Assembly: GCA_905250025.1 (NCBI GenBank)
Contig: CAJNOJ010000034.1
Location: 535,582 to 599,581 of the forward strand
Direction of reading: 5' to 3'
Source of the DNA: Adineta ricciae
Taxonomy: Eukaryota > Rotifera > Eurotatoria > Adinetida > Adinetidae
DNA length: 64,000 nucleotides
This document shows positions 27,409 through 43,023 of this stretch, in pieces (the first letter of the stretch is position 1; each line of letters opens with the position of its first letter). The notes beneath the pieces were generated by a model. That model was not told where the DNA came from. It searched no databases and was given only the letters and a program-made list of their open reading frames with translations. Position numbers and translations under genes: made by a program.

Positions 27409-29357
27409 TTAATCTTTAACCCAAGCATGCTCCAGTAAGGATTCAAATGACGGGCGTCGGTCAGGATTTTGGGCGAGACAACGTTGAATTAGATTTTTCA
27501 ATGAAGCTGACATATGTGGTTTGAGAACTAACTTGTGACCAGTGATATCCTCTTCACTTTCAAATGGTAGACTACCACAAACCTAAAACCAACACAAATC
27601 AAACGAAACGAACCGAGTTTTCGACTTACCATATCATACAGCAGCACACCGAGTGTCCATACGGTCGATGGAATACCTGCATAACGCTTTTTCGTGATGT
27701 ATTCAGGCGATTTATACTGTTTTGTGCCATGGAAATCTGAATAATAGGATGTTGAGGATTTACAAATGGCACTGGCACCAAAATCGATCAACACGAGTGA
27801 TTCGGATTCCAGATCAACTAAAATGTTTTCACTTTTGAGATCACGATGTACAACGCCCTTTCTAAATAAAGACAAATAGAGATCTATTAGTATCAATGAT
27901 GTAATCAAGTCTTTTCATCAATCATTATACAAGAAGAACGAACAGCTGCGACGAACACTTCACATATGTAACCATCTTGTGTCTTTTTTATTAGTATGAT
28001 ATTAAAATTTTCTAGTCATTCATTTCAAAATTCACATGATTGCTTCGAGTTACTTTCACGTTTAATCACTGCAGGGCTGGTATGATTTATCTCTTTTGCA
28101 ATACTTTCCTCATTACAGCTGGCATACTTGACAAAATTTGTTCTTCATCGATGTGAACATCTGTTGTACCTTCGAGGGTTCCTTTCCAGCAATTTAGTTC
28201 TATATCATCATCAATTTCAATGAACCTTGGGATAGTCTAAACAGTACTTGATCGCAGTAGTGTCTCTGATCTGGGTCTGATGCATATCTACTTTCTCTCG
28301 CACTCTGATTTGTATCGTCGACAGCGTGGCAGCTATTTGTTTATGCTTGAATCTTACCGTAGCATGGCTAGATTGATATGCACTAATTGTTGAAAGAATT
28401 TTCGCGCTGTTGCTTCGCTTAAATGGCCACTCTCAGTCGACTCGAGAAAATCGAATAGATCTTGACAATTACGTAAACGTTCCATGACTAATATCCAGTG
28501 TTGAGCATTCTCAAAATAATCATACACATGAATAATACCTAGCAAAGATGAATAAAGATGTGTGCCAACCGAAAACATATCGAGAAATACTCTACCTTGT
28601 ATTTCATGCACGGCTTTATGTAGTAAAACTTCCGCTGGATACTTTTTCTGACTAATCATCAACCAATTTTTTGTTTTCTCTTTTGGAATAAACTTGACTA
28701 CAACTGGTTTATTGTCACTCAAACGAGTGCCTTCGTAGATATCGGAAAATCCTCCACTTCGGATAAATTCACCCAATTGATAATAGTCACCAAAATTCGA
28801 TTTAATCACATCGAATCGTACCATGTTGAAGAGAACTTGTTCGATTGATAATGCATCCACAGTTGGAGAATAGTTCGGTGTTTTTAAAAGCATCGACGCT
28901 GTAGGACTTGAATTTGTAGTTTGTTCATTTTGTGTACGCGTGTGGTTTATTAGAAAATCTTTCTTTGTGGTTAATGATAGTGATGATGACGACGATGACG
29001 AAGATGTATTGGAACAACTGGATGGAAATTGTAGTTGATTATTTTCATATGGACGATACGCATTGAAACGTGTCGTCAGGGATGCTGAAGACTTTTGTTC
29101 AGTGGAATTGGACGACGACGACGATGGTGGTTGTTCTTGATCACGATAAATTCCGGCAGGTAGAATACGTGTTGACATGAATGATGATGGTTCGATAAAT
29201 TCGGTTAAGGATGATGTTGATGATGATGAGGAAAGGGAAAAAACAGCTACACTATTATTGCCATGATCTTCATTAGTGTGCAAGGACGATGACGACGAAG
29301 ACGATGATGATGATGTTGATGATGAGTCAACTTCAGATAGTTTGTTATTGTGATCTT
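27409..29357 (-). CDS. PIM-like serine/threonine kinase (5' end incomplete)
   Basis: Calcium/calmodulin-kinase-group protein kinase resembling animal PIM kinases. The N-terminal extension is dominated by Ser runs and is probably disordered. The kinase domain starts [19 protein letters not shown]. It continues with [14 protein letters not shown] (catalytic Lys), [20 protein letters not shown] and QDLFDFLE at the hinge, [14 protein letters not shown] and LIDFGASA. After [14 protein letters not shown] it ends in [19 protein letters not shown], stop at 27409. Ser/Thr position, hinge and C-lobe follow PIM, but the hinge has Arg where vertebrate PIMs have their characteristic proline insertion. One intron (about 57 nt, near 28590) is in frame and stop-free; another (28357-27862) is unusually long, 496 nt. 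The first exon seen begins after an acceptor at 29358; the true start could be upstream or an internal ATG such as that of MSTRILPAG. Confidence 0.85.
28087..28236 (-). other. Open 50-codon stretch inside the PIM-like intron
   Basis: Within the long intron, on the same strand, an acceptor-like TTTAG is followed by 49 sense codons and a stop. The translation looks protein-like ([19 protein letters not shown], then [19 protein letters not shown]). It does not join in frame to the preceding kinase exon. It may be an alternative terminal exon, a nested gene remnant or chance. Confidence 0.25.
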
Positions 29358-32300
29358 CTAAAAAAAACGAACAGAATTTGAATGATTTGCAATTGATTGA
29401 AAACTTTAAGAAAAAACTATATCCAGCTGAACACCACACGTCTACATGCGCTTGTTCTGTTTGCTTGGTTTGACCGTTTAGAAGCAATGTACAATCAGCT
29501 ATTTTCTCTCTCTCCTTCTTTCTTTCTTTCTTTCTTTCTGTAACTGGCCGGTCGATGTCCAGCGAAAGCATATGTATATACGCGACAACACTTCACCGAA
29601 TTTTTTCTTCTCCTCTCTTCTTCTTCCCCTTCTCTTTCCTTTGCACTAACCCATTTTATATGAATAAACACACTCACTCGTTCGACAGCTGAAACGAATA
29701 CGTACTCGTCCGTCTACAGTCGAAGCTGTCCGGGATACACTATTTTTCTCCTGTCTTGACACTTCTGCTGTCTCCTTCTCTCTTCTCTTTACGTTTTTTT
29801 TCTCTTCTCATCCAATACTCGTAGAGTGCATATACGTTCAAGGTTCCTTCGTTACATGGGTACACGCACTGCAATCTGTCACATACTTTCTAGTTAATGT
29901 TACGTAATGCAGAACAAAAAAAACGAGAGAAGAAGAAAAAGAAAAGAAAGAAGTGTCAAAAAACGATTCATTTCTCGATATTTACTGGTTGAGCAAACGA
30001 GTGTATTGATGGACGATGCCGTTAACCACAAAAGAGAGAGGGAGAGAGAAAGAATTGTATACTAGCAAGAAAAAGAAAGAAAATATTCAAGGAAGAAAAA
30101 GCTATCATATGAGGCAACGACGAAAAGGATAAAAAAGAAAGAAAGAGAACAGTTTCTTCATTAATGAAAGAAGAAGAAACAAAAAAGAAGTTTGCGGTCG
30201 AAGCTGTATCGAATAAACATGCATGCTCAGCCCACGCGTCGTAGCATACGGTTTTGACGACGGTAACTCGTAACTAATGTAAAATGACGAGGAAAAAAGA
30301 AATCATATGTTTCAGTCATTCTTTTCCATCGTTTTCTCTAAAGTGCATGGTTCTCAAAGCAAGGTCGTCGAGACTTTGGCGTATGTGTTCAAACAAGCAG
30401 ATTAATTCAATTTGCTTTTCTATTATCAACAATGAAATAGAAAAAGAAGAAGAAAAAGAAGAGAACGGCCTTGTCAGGACATATCTCGGGGTATAACAAC
30501 AAAAAACAAAAAATTTCTTTATTTCTTTCTATCTATCTGTGTTTGATGACTCGCTTTTATTGACTTTTACTATAACTGTCAGGACCTTGTAGTGTCGCCA
30601 ACATCGTGTTCTTTACTGTACTATTCGGATATACAACAACCTTGCTGTTCAATATGTGATCTATTTAAGCAACGGATCGAACACAAGAGTAAGAGACGGG
30701 AAAATGTGTAATTAGCCGTAAAACCTTGGTATATGCATTGCGACTAAACGATCAATCGATGAGAGAGATTCAAGGATGAATAGCGAGAATAGAAAGAGAG
30801 AAAAAAAAACGAACTGAAAGAACACGAAGCAAAAAATTGAAATAACAGTTTGCTGCTTTTTTTCAAAAGGAATTTATTCAGTTGTCATGTTGTGGCGATG
30901 ATGTTGGCTGCTATGATAAACTATACACAGCAACGATAGACGAACGCATACAAAAGAAACAGATGTTGTCTATGTAAACATACCAATAGACAGAACTAGT
31001 CGATTCTCGATCGAGAAAATTAGAGAAGGGATTAGCGACTAAACAAACCGGTAATAACCACCAATCATCAGTGATCATGCAGGTGGTACATGAAAGTGAA
31101 ATCATCATGTCAAAAGTCAAACTCACTTGATTTCGCAAGCACCATTTCCGAAGTCGATTTGCACGATTGTCTTATATAATAGGGTAATCTATTTGTCAGA
31201 GATACTGAAAGCTGATGATGAACATCGTTGATCTCGCCTGCAAGCATTGCCTGTGTCATTGACAAAATAAATATGATGATCGATGATGCGCAACTATTGT
31301 TTTTTGTTTTTCTCTATACGGGCGGCGGTTTGTTCTCGATACAGAAATGATTGTTTATCAGTGATCGATCGAGTAGTCATGACTGCCGTCGACGTCGAGA
31401 AAAGTTTTTGACAGGCGAAAAACAAACGAAAAAACGTCGTTTTTTCTACTCGAGAAAAAGCAACGAGAAAACTTGACTTTCATTCAATATCTATCTGCTT
31501 TCTTCTTCTTGCGTTAGACTAACATTAAGATATGACGTCGAGATACTATTTACCTTAGGGACACAATAAAAAAAGTCCTGAATAGTCAGATAAAAAGTTA
31601 TCTCTGTCTAGAAATCATATCTTCTTACCTAATGATGCATTATTAGTGACCATGTCACTTAAACATAAACTGGATTTGCTTTTGAAAAATCGAAGTAATC
31701 CCATGATTGGTTTGTTCTGAAGATTTCTTTTGATGATGATGTATATATATGTACACAGACACGAATGTGAAACAGAATAATAGAATAGTTTATGATATTG
31801 GAATTGCAAATAGATCTAAAAATTCCCCACATAGACAAAATATAGATCAGTTCAAAGTCGAATTATTTCGAGAAGGATAAATGGACCTACTTATTAACAC
31901 ATTCTTTCTAGTCCGCAGGCTGCTATGCAAAGACTAAACTGCTAAAATGTTCCTGACGAAAATAACTGCGAAATGCTAATCAAAACAGATAGAAAAAAAA
32001 GGAGAGGTCGGGTATGTCGTGGCATAACTTTACTCTTATCTACTGCTTCTGTCTGTTTTTCATGTAACTACGAATAGGTATGTATGCAATTTTACAGGTG
32101 ATTATTAGTTAGTGATTATATGTTTTACTCTCACTCTCTGCTTGTCTCATTTTACTTTTGCTTATCTCACCTGCATGTGTTTAGAGAGCAAAGAATAAAA
32201 ATCAAAGTTCGACTCTGTTAACCTGAATCAGATCATTTGTTTGATTTACATGAATATGTTATTATCAGCACATACACTAGAATCTTATCTTTTCATGAGT

Positions 32301-34170: not shown

Positions 34171-37100
34171 TTAGACATTAGTTGTTGCTATATATCCATT
34201 GTTTCTATTGAGCAGTTTCGAAGCATGATGTGCCTAGAATGTAAAGAATTCACATAGCTGTATTTCAAATATAGAAGGATTTTACCTGTACGAGTGAAAA
34301 ACGTTGTAATTCGTTGCTGTCAACCATGAATAGTGGATTTTCATCGGCTTGATTATGCATCATTTTTGCAAAATTTCGATGATGATGTATTGATAAATGT
34401 TGAGTGTGGGGTGTGTAATATCTAGCAGTAGCTTGTGCGAATGTTTCTCTTCTTGAAGGTCTTTGAATTGAAGTTCTTCTTATGAAGCTGCGTGACGGTG
34501 GACCAAAGTTATCACTTGAGATCGTAGTTTGTCGACGAAGACGTTGATTTTCAGTAGACGGTTGAGCGGCAAACGTTTCAGCCATGGTTTGTGTATGTTG
34601 TCGATCGAAGTATGCACGAAGAGCGAACTAAATTCAAATACAGATTGTCGATCTCCTTGTTCGATCTGTGACAATTTACTTTCAAAAGATCTAATGGGAA
34701 GAACCAAATAATATTCCATATCCAAACAATAGCTGCCCATGTCCATCCACAACCGTGTATATGGGTGAAATTCCAGTTAGCCCAAACAGCGATGAATGTT
34801 GCAATCAGTTGAGCAATGAGAAAAGCACCGACGAGGACGATGGATGGACGTTCGAGAAAGAAGAAACTATGTGAACGAGTGATGAAGATCAATGCTTGAC
34901 TAATGGTTGACACTTGTAAATAGATAATCGAGTTTAAGACTGGATGATTGTAACCTGGATTGATATTTGATTGTGAATTGTATGGAAAGTGTTGAACACC
35001 GAATTTATCTTGAAAAAATGTTGTATCGACTGCAACTGCAAAGAAAGCAATCGTTGAGGCTGCTAGATAGACACCATATACGATCGCATATGTGAAGATT
35101 TCCGAGAGATGCCAACTGTTTGGATAAGAAGACGGTTTTACTCGATCTTTCGATATAGTTAAGATTGTACCGTCGTTGAGAATAGCAAGAATCAGAATCT
35201 AGAGAGCGTGTATGTGTTGATACATCATCGAAATTGAAATGAGTTGATTACCATAAATGAGGGAAAGTCGAATTTGTAAGCAAAGATCAGCACAGAAAAT
35301 CCGACCAAAATACGAATTGTTATGGAACATGTGTAGATAGCATAGTTTCGCATACGTTGGAAGATTTGTCTCGAGCCAAGAATAGCTAGAAATCAGAATA
35401 CAAGAACAATTGTATATCTCTTTCAAATAGGATTGAAGTTAAACATGAAACAAACTATTAAGTGCTATATTTACCATCGATAATGACTGATAAACCTGGT
35501 TCTGTTAGTACAATATCCGCTGCTGATCGCGCAGCATCGGACGCATCTGCAACGGCAACGCCCACGTTAGCTTTTGACAATGCCGGTGCATCATTGACTC
35601 CATCACCAGTCATTGCAATCATATGACCCATCTTTTGTAATCGATCAACAATCTCGTATTTGTGTTCAGGGTATACACCAGCAAAACCATCAGCATGTAA
35701 AACCAAATCGTCAATATCTCGATAACCAGAATCTGGTGGAGGTCCTTCTTTGAGCGTAGTAGAAAGAAACATATTATCGCCCATGCCGAGACGTCGGCCA
35801 GTTTCTTTAGCAATTGCTAATTGGTCACCAGTTAACATTTTAACTTTGACACCTATTCATTTCAAGTTATGAAAATAGGCACTAGAATATAGAAAAGATA
35901 CTTGCCAAGTTCTAACGCGCGTTGAATAGTTTCTTTGGTATCTTCACGTGGTGGATCATAGATAGGTAACAGACCGATTAATTTGAATCCATTTCCTTTT
36001 CCATCTTTTTCTCCACTAGGAACATCTTCAATGGCTACTGCCAATGCTCGTAAACCACGGCCGGCGAATTCATCAACATCAGCGTTTAATTGTTTGATTT
36101 GTTGATCCGTTTTGTCCCGTGTACATAAATCAAGAATTGTATGTGACATACCTTTGCTAATTCGATGTACACTTCCATCCTTCGTTTCTTTATAGGTGAT
36201 CTCTGTTCGTTTAATAGTTGGATTAAATCTATGAAAAATGACGTAAATATCTGGTATTCGTAACAACGGTTCTTTTCGTACGGTTTGAAGTCCAACTCTT
36301 GAATACCATCACGAACTTTATCTTTATCACCATATGTTGAGATAATGCACGCATCACTAAAACGAAAAACACGAATAAGAACTGGAATATGGGTACTTTC
36401 TGCTTGACCTACATCGCATCTGGATGTTCTAATCGAGAGGCAATAGCTGCATAACGAATGATCTCACCACTTTCAATATCTGCATATTTTTTTATTGTAT
36501 CTTTATCCACAACAAGTTTATTCAAAGTTAAGGTTCCAGTTTTATCCGAACAGAGGATGGTCACAGCAGCCAGTTCTTCAATTGCTGTGACATGCGTAAC
36601 AATCGCTTTATGCTCAGACAATTGTCTAGCACCAATAGCTAATGTAACCGATAAAACTGTTGGCATGGCAATGGGAATGCCACCAATCAGTAGTACGAGG
36701 ATGTTGTTAATGCCACGCCGATAGCTGTAGTGAAAACCAGCACTAGACATGAAGATGAAAATGTGGAAAAAACTAGGCATGTTGTTACATACTACATCAC
36801 AAAGATTTCAGCAATGATAAAGATTCCGATTGCAGCAATACAGAAGTTACCAATTTTAGCCAGAATTGTTTGTAGATGGCCAATTTCGTCATTGGCATTA
36901 CCTACTAATTTCGCTGCTCGACCGAAGAATGTGTTGACACCCGTGCCAATAACTGAAATATGAAGTAGCTTTCTTTGTGACGAAAATCGGTTGATTGTAC
37001 AGACCCACTGCTTCTCCTTCGCCTTGTTTACAGATTGAACCAGAAAAAATTTCATCACCATGTTTTTTATCTACAGGAAGTGATTCTCCGGTCAACGCTG

Positions 37101-37869
37101 CTTGATCTATTGAAATATCGCCTTGTTCGACTAGTTACGCAAACATTAATGAATGTTGCTCCTCTTTACTATCGAACAAGAACGCTCACCAATCAGTCGA
37201 CCGTCAGCTGGTATCACATCACCTAGTTTAATGCCAATAATATCTCCCGGAACGAGCTCAGCAGCGTCAATAACTTTCCACTGACCATTCCGTTTGACTT
37301 TTGCTTCTGGTGCTAAAGATTTCATCAAGGATTTCACTGCACTACCCGCATTACGCTGTTCAATAAATCCAATGATCGAGTTGGCCAGAAGAAGTAGTAT
37401 TATTCCGACGAAATCTTCCCAATCTGGTGCTCGACCGCCGCCATTCGATACAGCGATGGCAACGATGGCAGCTGCTTCCATGACCCATGAAAGTGGATTC
37501 CACATGAATAAAAGAAACTGAATGATAGGATTTTGAGTTTTCTCGTCTAAGCGATTGTGTCCGAACTAAATCAAAGCGAAAAGATACATCATAGGATTAG
37601 ATTCTCAAATTACTTTTTCAAGACGTTCTTTGATCTGATCATCATTTAGACCGTCTTTTTTTGTGCTAAAATAGTAGATTGTACAATCAATAAAAGGAAG
37701 AATCGAGTTGAATTACATACTCTAGCATTTTAAAAACGTCACCTTCTTTCATCGTCGACAGATCATATTTTTCTTTATTGTACATTTCTTCGACTGTCAA
37801 ATTTTTGACAGCCTGGGCAGGTATATTCACACTTGTGGATTTGGGTCTTCCATTCATCTCCGGTGCCAT
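34171..37869 (-). CDS. P3A-type plasma-membrane H+-ATPase, plant-like
   Basis: Single-subunit proton pump that exports H+ using ATP and energises the plasma membrane; typical of plants, fungi and protists. ATG at 37869 ([12 protein letters not shown]). Membrane segments 1-2 are at 37.35-37.5 kb ([36 protein letters not shown]). The A-domain shows TGESLPVDK near 37.09 kb. The phosphorylation motif [13 protein letters not shown] is near 36.54 kb, and [20 protein letters not shown] near 35.6 kb. The M6 region reads [20 protein letters not shown] and keeps the Asp that is essential for proton transport in plant AHA2. TM8-10 include [13 protein letters not shown] and [14 protein letters not shown]. 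About ten short introns interrupt the gene. The C-terminal regulatory tail is Arg/Ser-rich, unlike the plant 14-3-3 tail, and a last small exon (34171-34236) ends TTNV. The whole is intact. Confidence 0.97.

Positions 37870-39218: not shown

Positions 39219-43023
<3,805 letters not shown>

Follow-up and report, generated by a model that had tools for sequence, protein, structure and literature searches.

Reviews divide plasma membranes into those energised by sodium, as in animals, and those energised by protons, as in plants and fungi. One account describes the Na+ pump as strictly animal and the H+ pump as strictly a property of land plants and fungi, with both present only in certain protists and chlorophyte algae (PMC6985207). 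In the plant pump AHA2, H+ is held on Asp684 in transmembrane segment 6 (TM6), where it is paired with Asn106 of TM2, and is released as Arg655 of TM5 approaches, whilst the side chain of Asp617 holds a K+ ion of the P domain (PMC5387105). The TM4 sequence GGIPIAMP is a published synapomorphy of clade P3A-I, the reported members of which are land plants, green algae, stramenopiles, fungi, Ichthyosporea and amoebae (PMC9708826). Here we describe a gene on a 64,000-nucleotide stretch of the genome of the bdelloid rotifer Adineta ricciae (GenBank assembly GCA_905250025.1, contig CAJNOJ010000034.1, positions 535,582 to 599,581 of the forward strand; "the window") which, judged from its sequence, is very probably a true animal gene for a plasma-membrane H+-ATPase of P3A-I type, belonging to a resident family with eight or more members.

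Against TIGR01647, the NCBIfam model for P3A proton efflux, the window protein scores 1079.7 bits (cut-off 615.5) over profile positions 1-754 of 755, with the next-best profile at 316 bits; by this score, a chance match to P3A is excluded. The animal Na+/K+-ATPase (P2C) belongs to the same superfamily, has the same general role of energising the plasma membrane (PMC10654040) and is also encoded in this genome, but on its model, TIGR01106, the window protein reaches 186.2 bits, far short of the cut-off of 946.1, which places the protein outside P2C. In a search of solved structures AHA2 was matched at 1010 bits, and yeast and Neurospora Pma1 at 516 and 513 bits, respectively. The original prediction, a plant-type P3A H+-ATPase, is consistent with both the profile and the AHA2 scores, and the closeness to plant AHA pumps rather than to fungal Pma1, which it had noticed in the C-terminal membrane segments, holds over the whole protein; the two motifs that it named, [19 protein letters not shown] and the TM6 signature LNDGT, are both present. 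Two other whole proteins of the family that were scored on TIGR01647, C127a and C33 (copies are named here by handle, the window gene being C34), reach 1024.2 and 1065.7 bits.

Identity of the window protein is 57% to AHA2 (for the part held in PDB 5ksd), 52% to the plant-like sequence L038 over its full length, and 38-40% to Pma1. With AHA2 and the land-plant pumps (P3A-I) it shares GGIPIAMP and the equivalents of Asn106, Asp329, Asp617, Arg655 and Asp684; it differs from them in its tail, which is without R-domain similarity and ends ATTNV rather than YTV, and in its animal host. Fungal Pma1 (P3A-IIc) has the family and the overall plan in common with it, but has GVPVGLP in TM4 and, in both Pma1 sequences compared, His in the Arg655 column; in ascomycetes, a C-terminal HEK sequence is characteristic of the tail (PMC9708826). 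Two prokaryotic P3A sequences, L039 from a Chlamydiia metagenome-assembled genome (1074.4 bits on TIGR01647) and L043 from an Epsilonproteobacteria one (913.6 bits), are likewise over the cut-off and keep the Arg655 and Asp684 columns, but they are 39-41% identical to the window gene and lie on the opposite side of the tree. L038 is a record of 3485 bases (NZ_WTYV01000019.1), filed as Alteraurantiacibacter buctensis, that codes for a complete H+-ATPase of plant-like type, its R-domain-like tail ending in HYTV; it is very likely a plant transcript contaminating a bacterial record.

The maximum-likelihood tree (LG+G4, 812 columns) was built from 16 sequences, i.e. the eight genome copies, AHA2, L038, the two Pma1, L039 and L043, the P2-like L041 and the P3B-like L040. 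Prokaryotic relatives had been confirmed at no fewer than 20 loci, six of which were translated, with L054 left out of the tree as a second P3B-like sequence; the labels P2-like (L041) and P3B-like (L040, L054) were given from sequence, without a profile. The eight genome copies form one clade (support 100/100) that joins the two plant sequences (99.8/100), and the two Pma1 sequences group with the two prokaryotic P3A sequences (93/87). Within the clade, the position of C22 relative to C34/C84 and to the copies with Asn at 684 has a support of just 33.7/50. A tree had been proposed at the outset as the check that could overturn the assignment; it leaves the gene in P3A, apart from the one P2-like bacterial outgroup, the host animal's own P2 pumps being outside the 16 sequences. 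The topology speaks against an affinity with fungal Pma1 or with prokaryotic P3A and names no donor, plants being the sole stand-in for P3A-I. "Closer to plants" is better read as "on the P3A-I side". One scan of viral contigs for possible carriers gave 32 pattern matches, with no relative among them.

The pump gene is resident in an animal genome. Wnt domains are known only from animals, and their presence here (up to 215 bits, with matches in none of 14 prokaryotic controls), together with that of Na+/K+-ATPase alpha genes, two of which are over the curated cut-off with exons summed, identifies the genome as an animal's. Protein-kinase exons flank the pump on both sides, at 27531-29592 and 39820-41883 of the window; the exon at 40750-41100 has its best match among solved structures in MARK1-4 and is 98.75% identical over 80 residues to its counterpart on C22. 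A second copy, C84, is colinear with window positions 20064-51976 in four blocks of 92-94% DNA identity with two short gaps (30 kb of C84 being compared). The C22 copy, which is 78% identical in protein to the window gene, has homologues of the window open reading frames (ORFs) 27531-29592 and 39820-41883 on either side and in the same order. Synonymous divergence (dS) from C22 is near saturation (1.7-1.8), and the same neighbours on both sides of C22 indicate that the gene was already in place before an old regional duplication that separated C34/C84 from C22. The GC content at third codon positions is 0.306 in the pump gene and 0.265-0.346 in six other ORFs of the window. Residency between animal genes, as first proposed, thus stands on the kinase neighbours, one of them MARK-like, and on the flanks of C84 and C22; the link to MARK, named as the point on which residency could fail, holds at the level of the assembly, the pump adjoining the MARK-like gene on its own contig. 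Bdelloid rotifers are degenerate tetraploids, in which a gene would be expected to have one close partner copy together with an old colinear one. For C70, C127, C33 and C17, the matches listed all lie inside the P3A genes, with no common flanking gene in the fetched DNA; this comparison set the ORFs of C70, C22 and C33 against 30 kb of C84, C22 and C70 and 10 kb around each C127 copy, C33 and C17, and covers pairs other than C22-C84 and C33-C17.

The view of a single gene was rejected, as whole-genome searches by family model (8 of 211 candidates scored) and by protein (45 of 176 scored) returned the same eight loci: C34, C84, C22, C70, C127a, C127b, C33 and C17. These hold stretches of 68-98% identity, all other places reaching at most 46% over partial stretches. 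At least eight genes, three of them without the proton acceptor, and five tails with PDZ-like ends thus go beyond the original prediction. None of the eight models has an internal stop; those of C34 and C84 span the full protein, and the others come from local alignment to the window protein and are short at one or both ends, with the C-terminal ends of C22, C70, C127a, C127b, C33 and C17 read onward in frame. Introns 1 and 2, at query residues 49 (phase 2) and 67 (phase 0), have the same position and phase in all eight copies, and that at 396 (phase 2) is found in seven. Eight further positions are common to the six copies other than C33 and C17, which have four positions of their own; position 987 is found in four copies. 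The ratio of nonsynonymous to synonymous divergence (dN/dS) over the whole coding sequence is 0.066-0.141 across the ten pairs tested (C34-C84 0.066, C34-C22 0.084), the values being rough in the seven pairs where dS exceeds 1, and 0.057-0.07 over the catalytic part among the window gene, C84 and C22; on these ratios, the catalytic part is under purifying selection. The two copies on C127 (166000-169500 and 190900-194300) are 97% identical in protein, about 25 kb apart and in the same orientation, and may be a tandem duplication or two haplotypes joined in assembly. C14, C71 and C95 carry stretches of P-type ATPase whose identity to the pump, around the P domain, is mostly 39-43%.

The window gene runs from 37869 to 34171 on the minus strand, from the first base of the start codon to the end of the stop, which is exactly the span given in the original prediction. 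Its 13 exons (3024 nt) encode 1007 residues with one terminal stop, and the same 13 exons were recovered on the window by a spliced aligner with the 1007-residue protein as query. The many introns first noted number 12, of 48-89 nt, of which 11 are GT-AG and intron 8 is GC-AG (GCAAGT). The GC donor of intron 8 (35853-35905) is common to C34 and C84, with GT at this site in C22, C70, C127a and C127b. The parts of the gene are as follows, all from the gene model.

37721..37869, minus strand: exon 1, with the start codon at 37869; cytosolic N terminus (also by spliced alignment).
37614..37665, minus strand: exon 2 (also by spliced alignment).
37190..37565, minus strand: exon 3; TM1-TM2, with the Asn106 equivalent, and start of the A domain (domain names through the AHA2 alignment).
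37005..37130, minus strand: exon 4; A domain with TGES at 37081-37092 (also by alignment).
36796..36952, minus strand: exon 5; end of the A domain and TM3 (also by spliced alignment).
36413..36742, minus strand: exon 6; TM4 with GGIPIAMP at 36661-36684 and the phosphorylation motif DKTGTLT at 36526-36546 (also by alignment).
36282..36356, minus strand: exon 7; N domain (also by spliced alignment).
35906..36228, minus strand: exon 8; N domain, followed by the GC-AG intron (also by spliced alignment).
35475..35852, minus strand: exon 9; P domain with GDGVNDAP at 35584-35607 (also by alignment).
35252..35385, minus strand: exon 10; TM5 with the Arg655 equivalent in SITIRI at 35309-35326 (also by alignment).
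34680..35198, minus strand: exon 11; TM6 with LNDGT at 35166-35180, then TM7-TM10 (also by alignment).
34286..34627, minus strand: exon 12; cytosolic Arg/Ser-rich C-terminal tail (also by tail comparison).
34171..34233, minus strand: exon 13; the last 20 residues, ending ATTNV-COOH, and the stop codon.

The codon of the H+-acceptor Asp, GAC, lies at 35172-35174 in exon 11. By analogy with AHA2, ATP would phosphorylate the Asp of DKTGT, one H+ would be held on the TM6 Asp (the Asp684 equivalent) against Asn106, and it would be expelled outwards when Arg655 approaches in the E2P state, making the protein a single-subunit electrogenic proton exporter. We infer, on the same analogy, that the window protein pumps H+ and sits in the plasma membrane.

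The window gene, C84 and C22 all keep GGIPIAMP exactly, as well as the equivalents of Asn106, Asp329 (the phosphorylated Asp), Asp617, Arg655 and Asp684. The TM4 motif reads GGLPIAMP in C33 and C17, GGIPTAMP in C127a and C127b, and GGIPTAMS in C70. Asn106 and Arg655 are kept in all eight copies. Arg655 is kept in streptophyte pumps and absent from typical protist and chlorophyte pumps, its absence being linked to failure to build a membrane potential (PMC6985207); by comparison with these, its presence throughout the family suggests that the pump could operate against a large gradient. Plant origin is not proved by this residue, since both prokaryotic P3A sequences share Arg in that column. 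Asp617 is replaced by Ala in C33 and C17.

The proton acceptor Asp684 is kept in five of the eight copies (C34, C84, C22, C33 and C17) and is Asn in C70, C127a and C127b, with AAT or AAC codons versus GAC or GAT elsewhere; all eight alignment sequences from outside this genome have Asp in this column. The three Asn684 copies are P3A by descent and profile, and not by the TM6 Asp. They also have Thr for Ile287 in TM4, a column in which the P2-like L041 has Glu. In AHA2, Asp684 mutants other than D684E show no H+ transport and appear to build up in the E1P state (PMC5387105), and one review describes the D684N pump as hypersensitive to K+ (PMC13143946). Despite Asn684, the three copies retain TGES, DKTGT and GDGVNDAP, and the catalytic-part dN/dS between C70 and C127a, 0.077, points to strong purifying selection; it is therefore likely that they are kept for a role distinct from ordinary H+ export. 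If that role is as a non-pumping partner, petunia PH1 (P3B), which raises transport by the P3A pump PH5 (PMC10654040), may offer a parallel. The Asn684 group has 31 fixed differences among 374 positions at which plants and the remaining five copies do not vary; as a number this is not unusual, since a similar count gives 29 private changes in C33/C17, and it is the location of the changes that stands out.

The tail of the window protein comprises 135 residues from the end of TM10 and, by sequence comparison, the tails of the family resemble neither plant nor fungal regulatory domains, as the original prediction had claimed for the window gene. A phmmer search with the window tail gave no match to a PDB chain up to E = 10. 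Homology to the plant R domain was rejected, all five tails compared with that of L038 (C34, C22, C70, C127a and C33) scoring no better than shuffles; the window tail scored 22, with a shuffle mean of 27.2 and with 455 of 500 shuffles reaching 22. The C34 and C127a tails, by the same kind of comparison, are homologous (score 187, shuffle mean 31, reached by 0 of 500 shuffles), and those of C34 and C33 weakly alike (score 45, reached by 3 of 500). A conserved element, [16 protein letters not shown], lies at 34210-34309 of the window and extends from exon 12 into exon 13, and a similar element is seen in C34, C84, C22, C70, C127a and C127b. Beyond it, the tails are unalignable by eye apart from their TTxV ends, which are TTNV in C34 and C84, TTAV in C22, and TTPV in C127a and C127b, i.e. 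five copies of three diverged lineages; C70, C33 and C17 end in SDKI, PRT and PKT, respectively. We take T-x-V-COOH to have the shape of a class I PDZ ligand; it also fits the C-terminal mode of 14-3-3 binding, and several RRxS/T stretches in the tail would presumably suit basophilic kinases. Such features suggest that its own Ser/Thr/Arg tail and PDZ-type C terminus may serve to hold or switch the pump.

Several points weigh against a genuine H+-ATPase family in this animal. The case is built on genomic sequence, dS is high in most of the pairs on which selection was judged, and the eukaryotic P3A sampling consists of two plant and two fungal sequences, with no algae, oomycetes, Ichthyosporea or other rotifers. 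The tail-only dN/dS is 0.13-0.72 across ten pairs, the top value being that of C127a-C127b; the tail is thus less constrained than the rest, which weakens claims on its function. The word "ATPase" is absent from the main text of the bdelloid papers searched, supplementary lists not being covered. Among the titles and starts of abstracts searched, none pointed to a report of a P3A pump from any animal, rotifers included, although supplementary gene lists may hold an earlier notice. That an algal or plant gene was joined to animal contigs by contamination or misassembly is hardly credible and is refuted as far as assembly data allow: although plant H+-ATPase contamination seems to occur in public records, L038 being a case, here eight divergent copies share small introns, C84 is colinear at 92-94%, C22 has the same neighbours on both sides, the third-position GC content fits the other ORFs of the window and the tails are not plant-like. 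It is also quite improbable that the family as a whole has turned to another ion or to a regulatory role, the window gene being canonical in sequence only. The replacements at 684 and 287 in C70, C127a and C127b, the missing Asp617 of C33 and C17, and the transport defect of all AHA2 Asp684 mutants except D684E (PMC5387105) would fit such a change; against it, the window gene, C84 and C22 keep the five functional residues, GGIPIAMP and a low catalytic dN/dS.

With regard to origin, horizontal transfer from an alga, a protist or another P3A-I donor is the probable route and likelier than retention, although, with four eukaryotic P3A sequences sampled, neither a donor nor transfer as such is established. 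Ichthyosporea are relatives of animals. Since P3A-I is reported from them, as from amoebae and fungi (PMC9708826), the holozoan ancestor may have had such a pump, which most animals lost and this lineage kept and expanded, with the same mechanism. The age of the gene, which precedes the C34-C22 duplication, the two intron positions found in all eight copies and the one found in seven, and the lack of any trace of a streptophyte R domain in the tails all speak for vertical retention, which nonetheless appears unlikely to us: it requires many independent losses across animals, and bdelloids are known to be rich in foreign genes, of which 6% are algal or plant in Adineta ricciae (PMC3499245), an abundance that favours transfer. 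In either case the arrival is old, being earlier than the C34-C22 split.

The original prediction holds in its core. The window gene itself belongs to a known kind; what is new is the family around it, in which natural Asn684 pumps occur together with an unrelated tail. An old and expanded P3A family, under selection beside Na+/K+-ATPases, makes the use of both currencies in one animal testable, and there may be an exception to the rule that animal membranes are run by sodium pumps only. In the Asn684 copies nature provides counterparts to the AHA2 mutations that abolish H+ transport (PMC5387105); these copies could show what a P3A protein that does not move protons does, or which other ion it moves. 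Should a regulatory role of the tails be confirmed, neither of the described regulatory domains, plant or ascomycete, would be related to them.

More tentatively, the family may have diversified after its arrival to provide a plant-like, proton-energised membrane beside the sodium system. Such a membrane might, as first suggested, change transport physiology and perhaps bear on recovery from desiccation. On this proposal, C34, C84 and C22 would be canonical pumps and C33 and C17 a class without the K+ site, whilst the Asn684/Thr287 class (C70, C127a and C127b) would be re-tuned to another ion or act as non-pumping, K+-sensitive partners in pump oligomers. Anchoring and regulation would be through an animal-type tail, with its basic Ser/Thr cluster and [17 protein letters not shown]-like TTxV end, and the pumps would cooperate with H+-coupled HAK/KUP K+ transporters of the same genome. 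To our knowledge, HAK/KUP genes are unusual for an animal; those found here are compatible with H+-coupled uptake, though no proof of it. The family model PF02705 gave 20 matches at about nine loci on six contigs (C7, C19, C75, C282, C390 and C479; L064-L069), and also had matches in 6 of 14 prokaryotic controls. The genes at C7:281814-283431 and C19:415569-417272 each contain eight small introns, with the aligned part free of stops, and the copies on C479 appear intronless.

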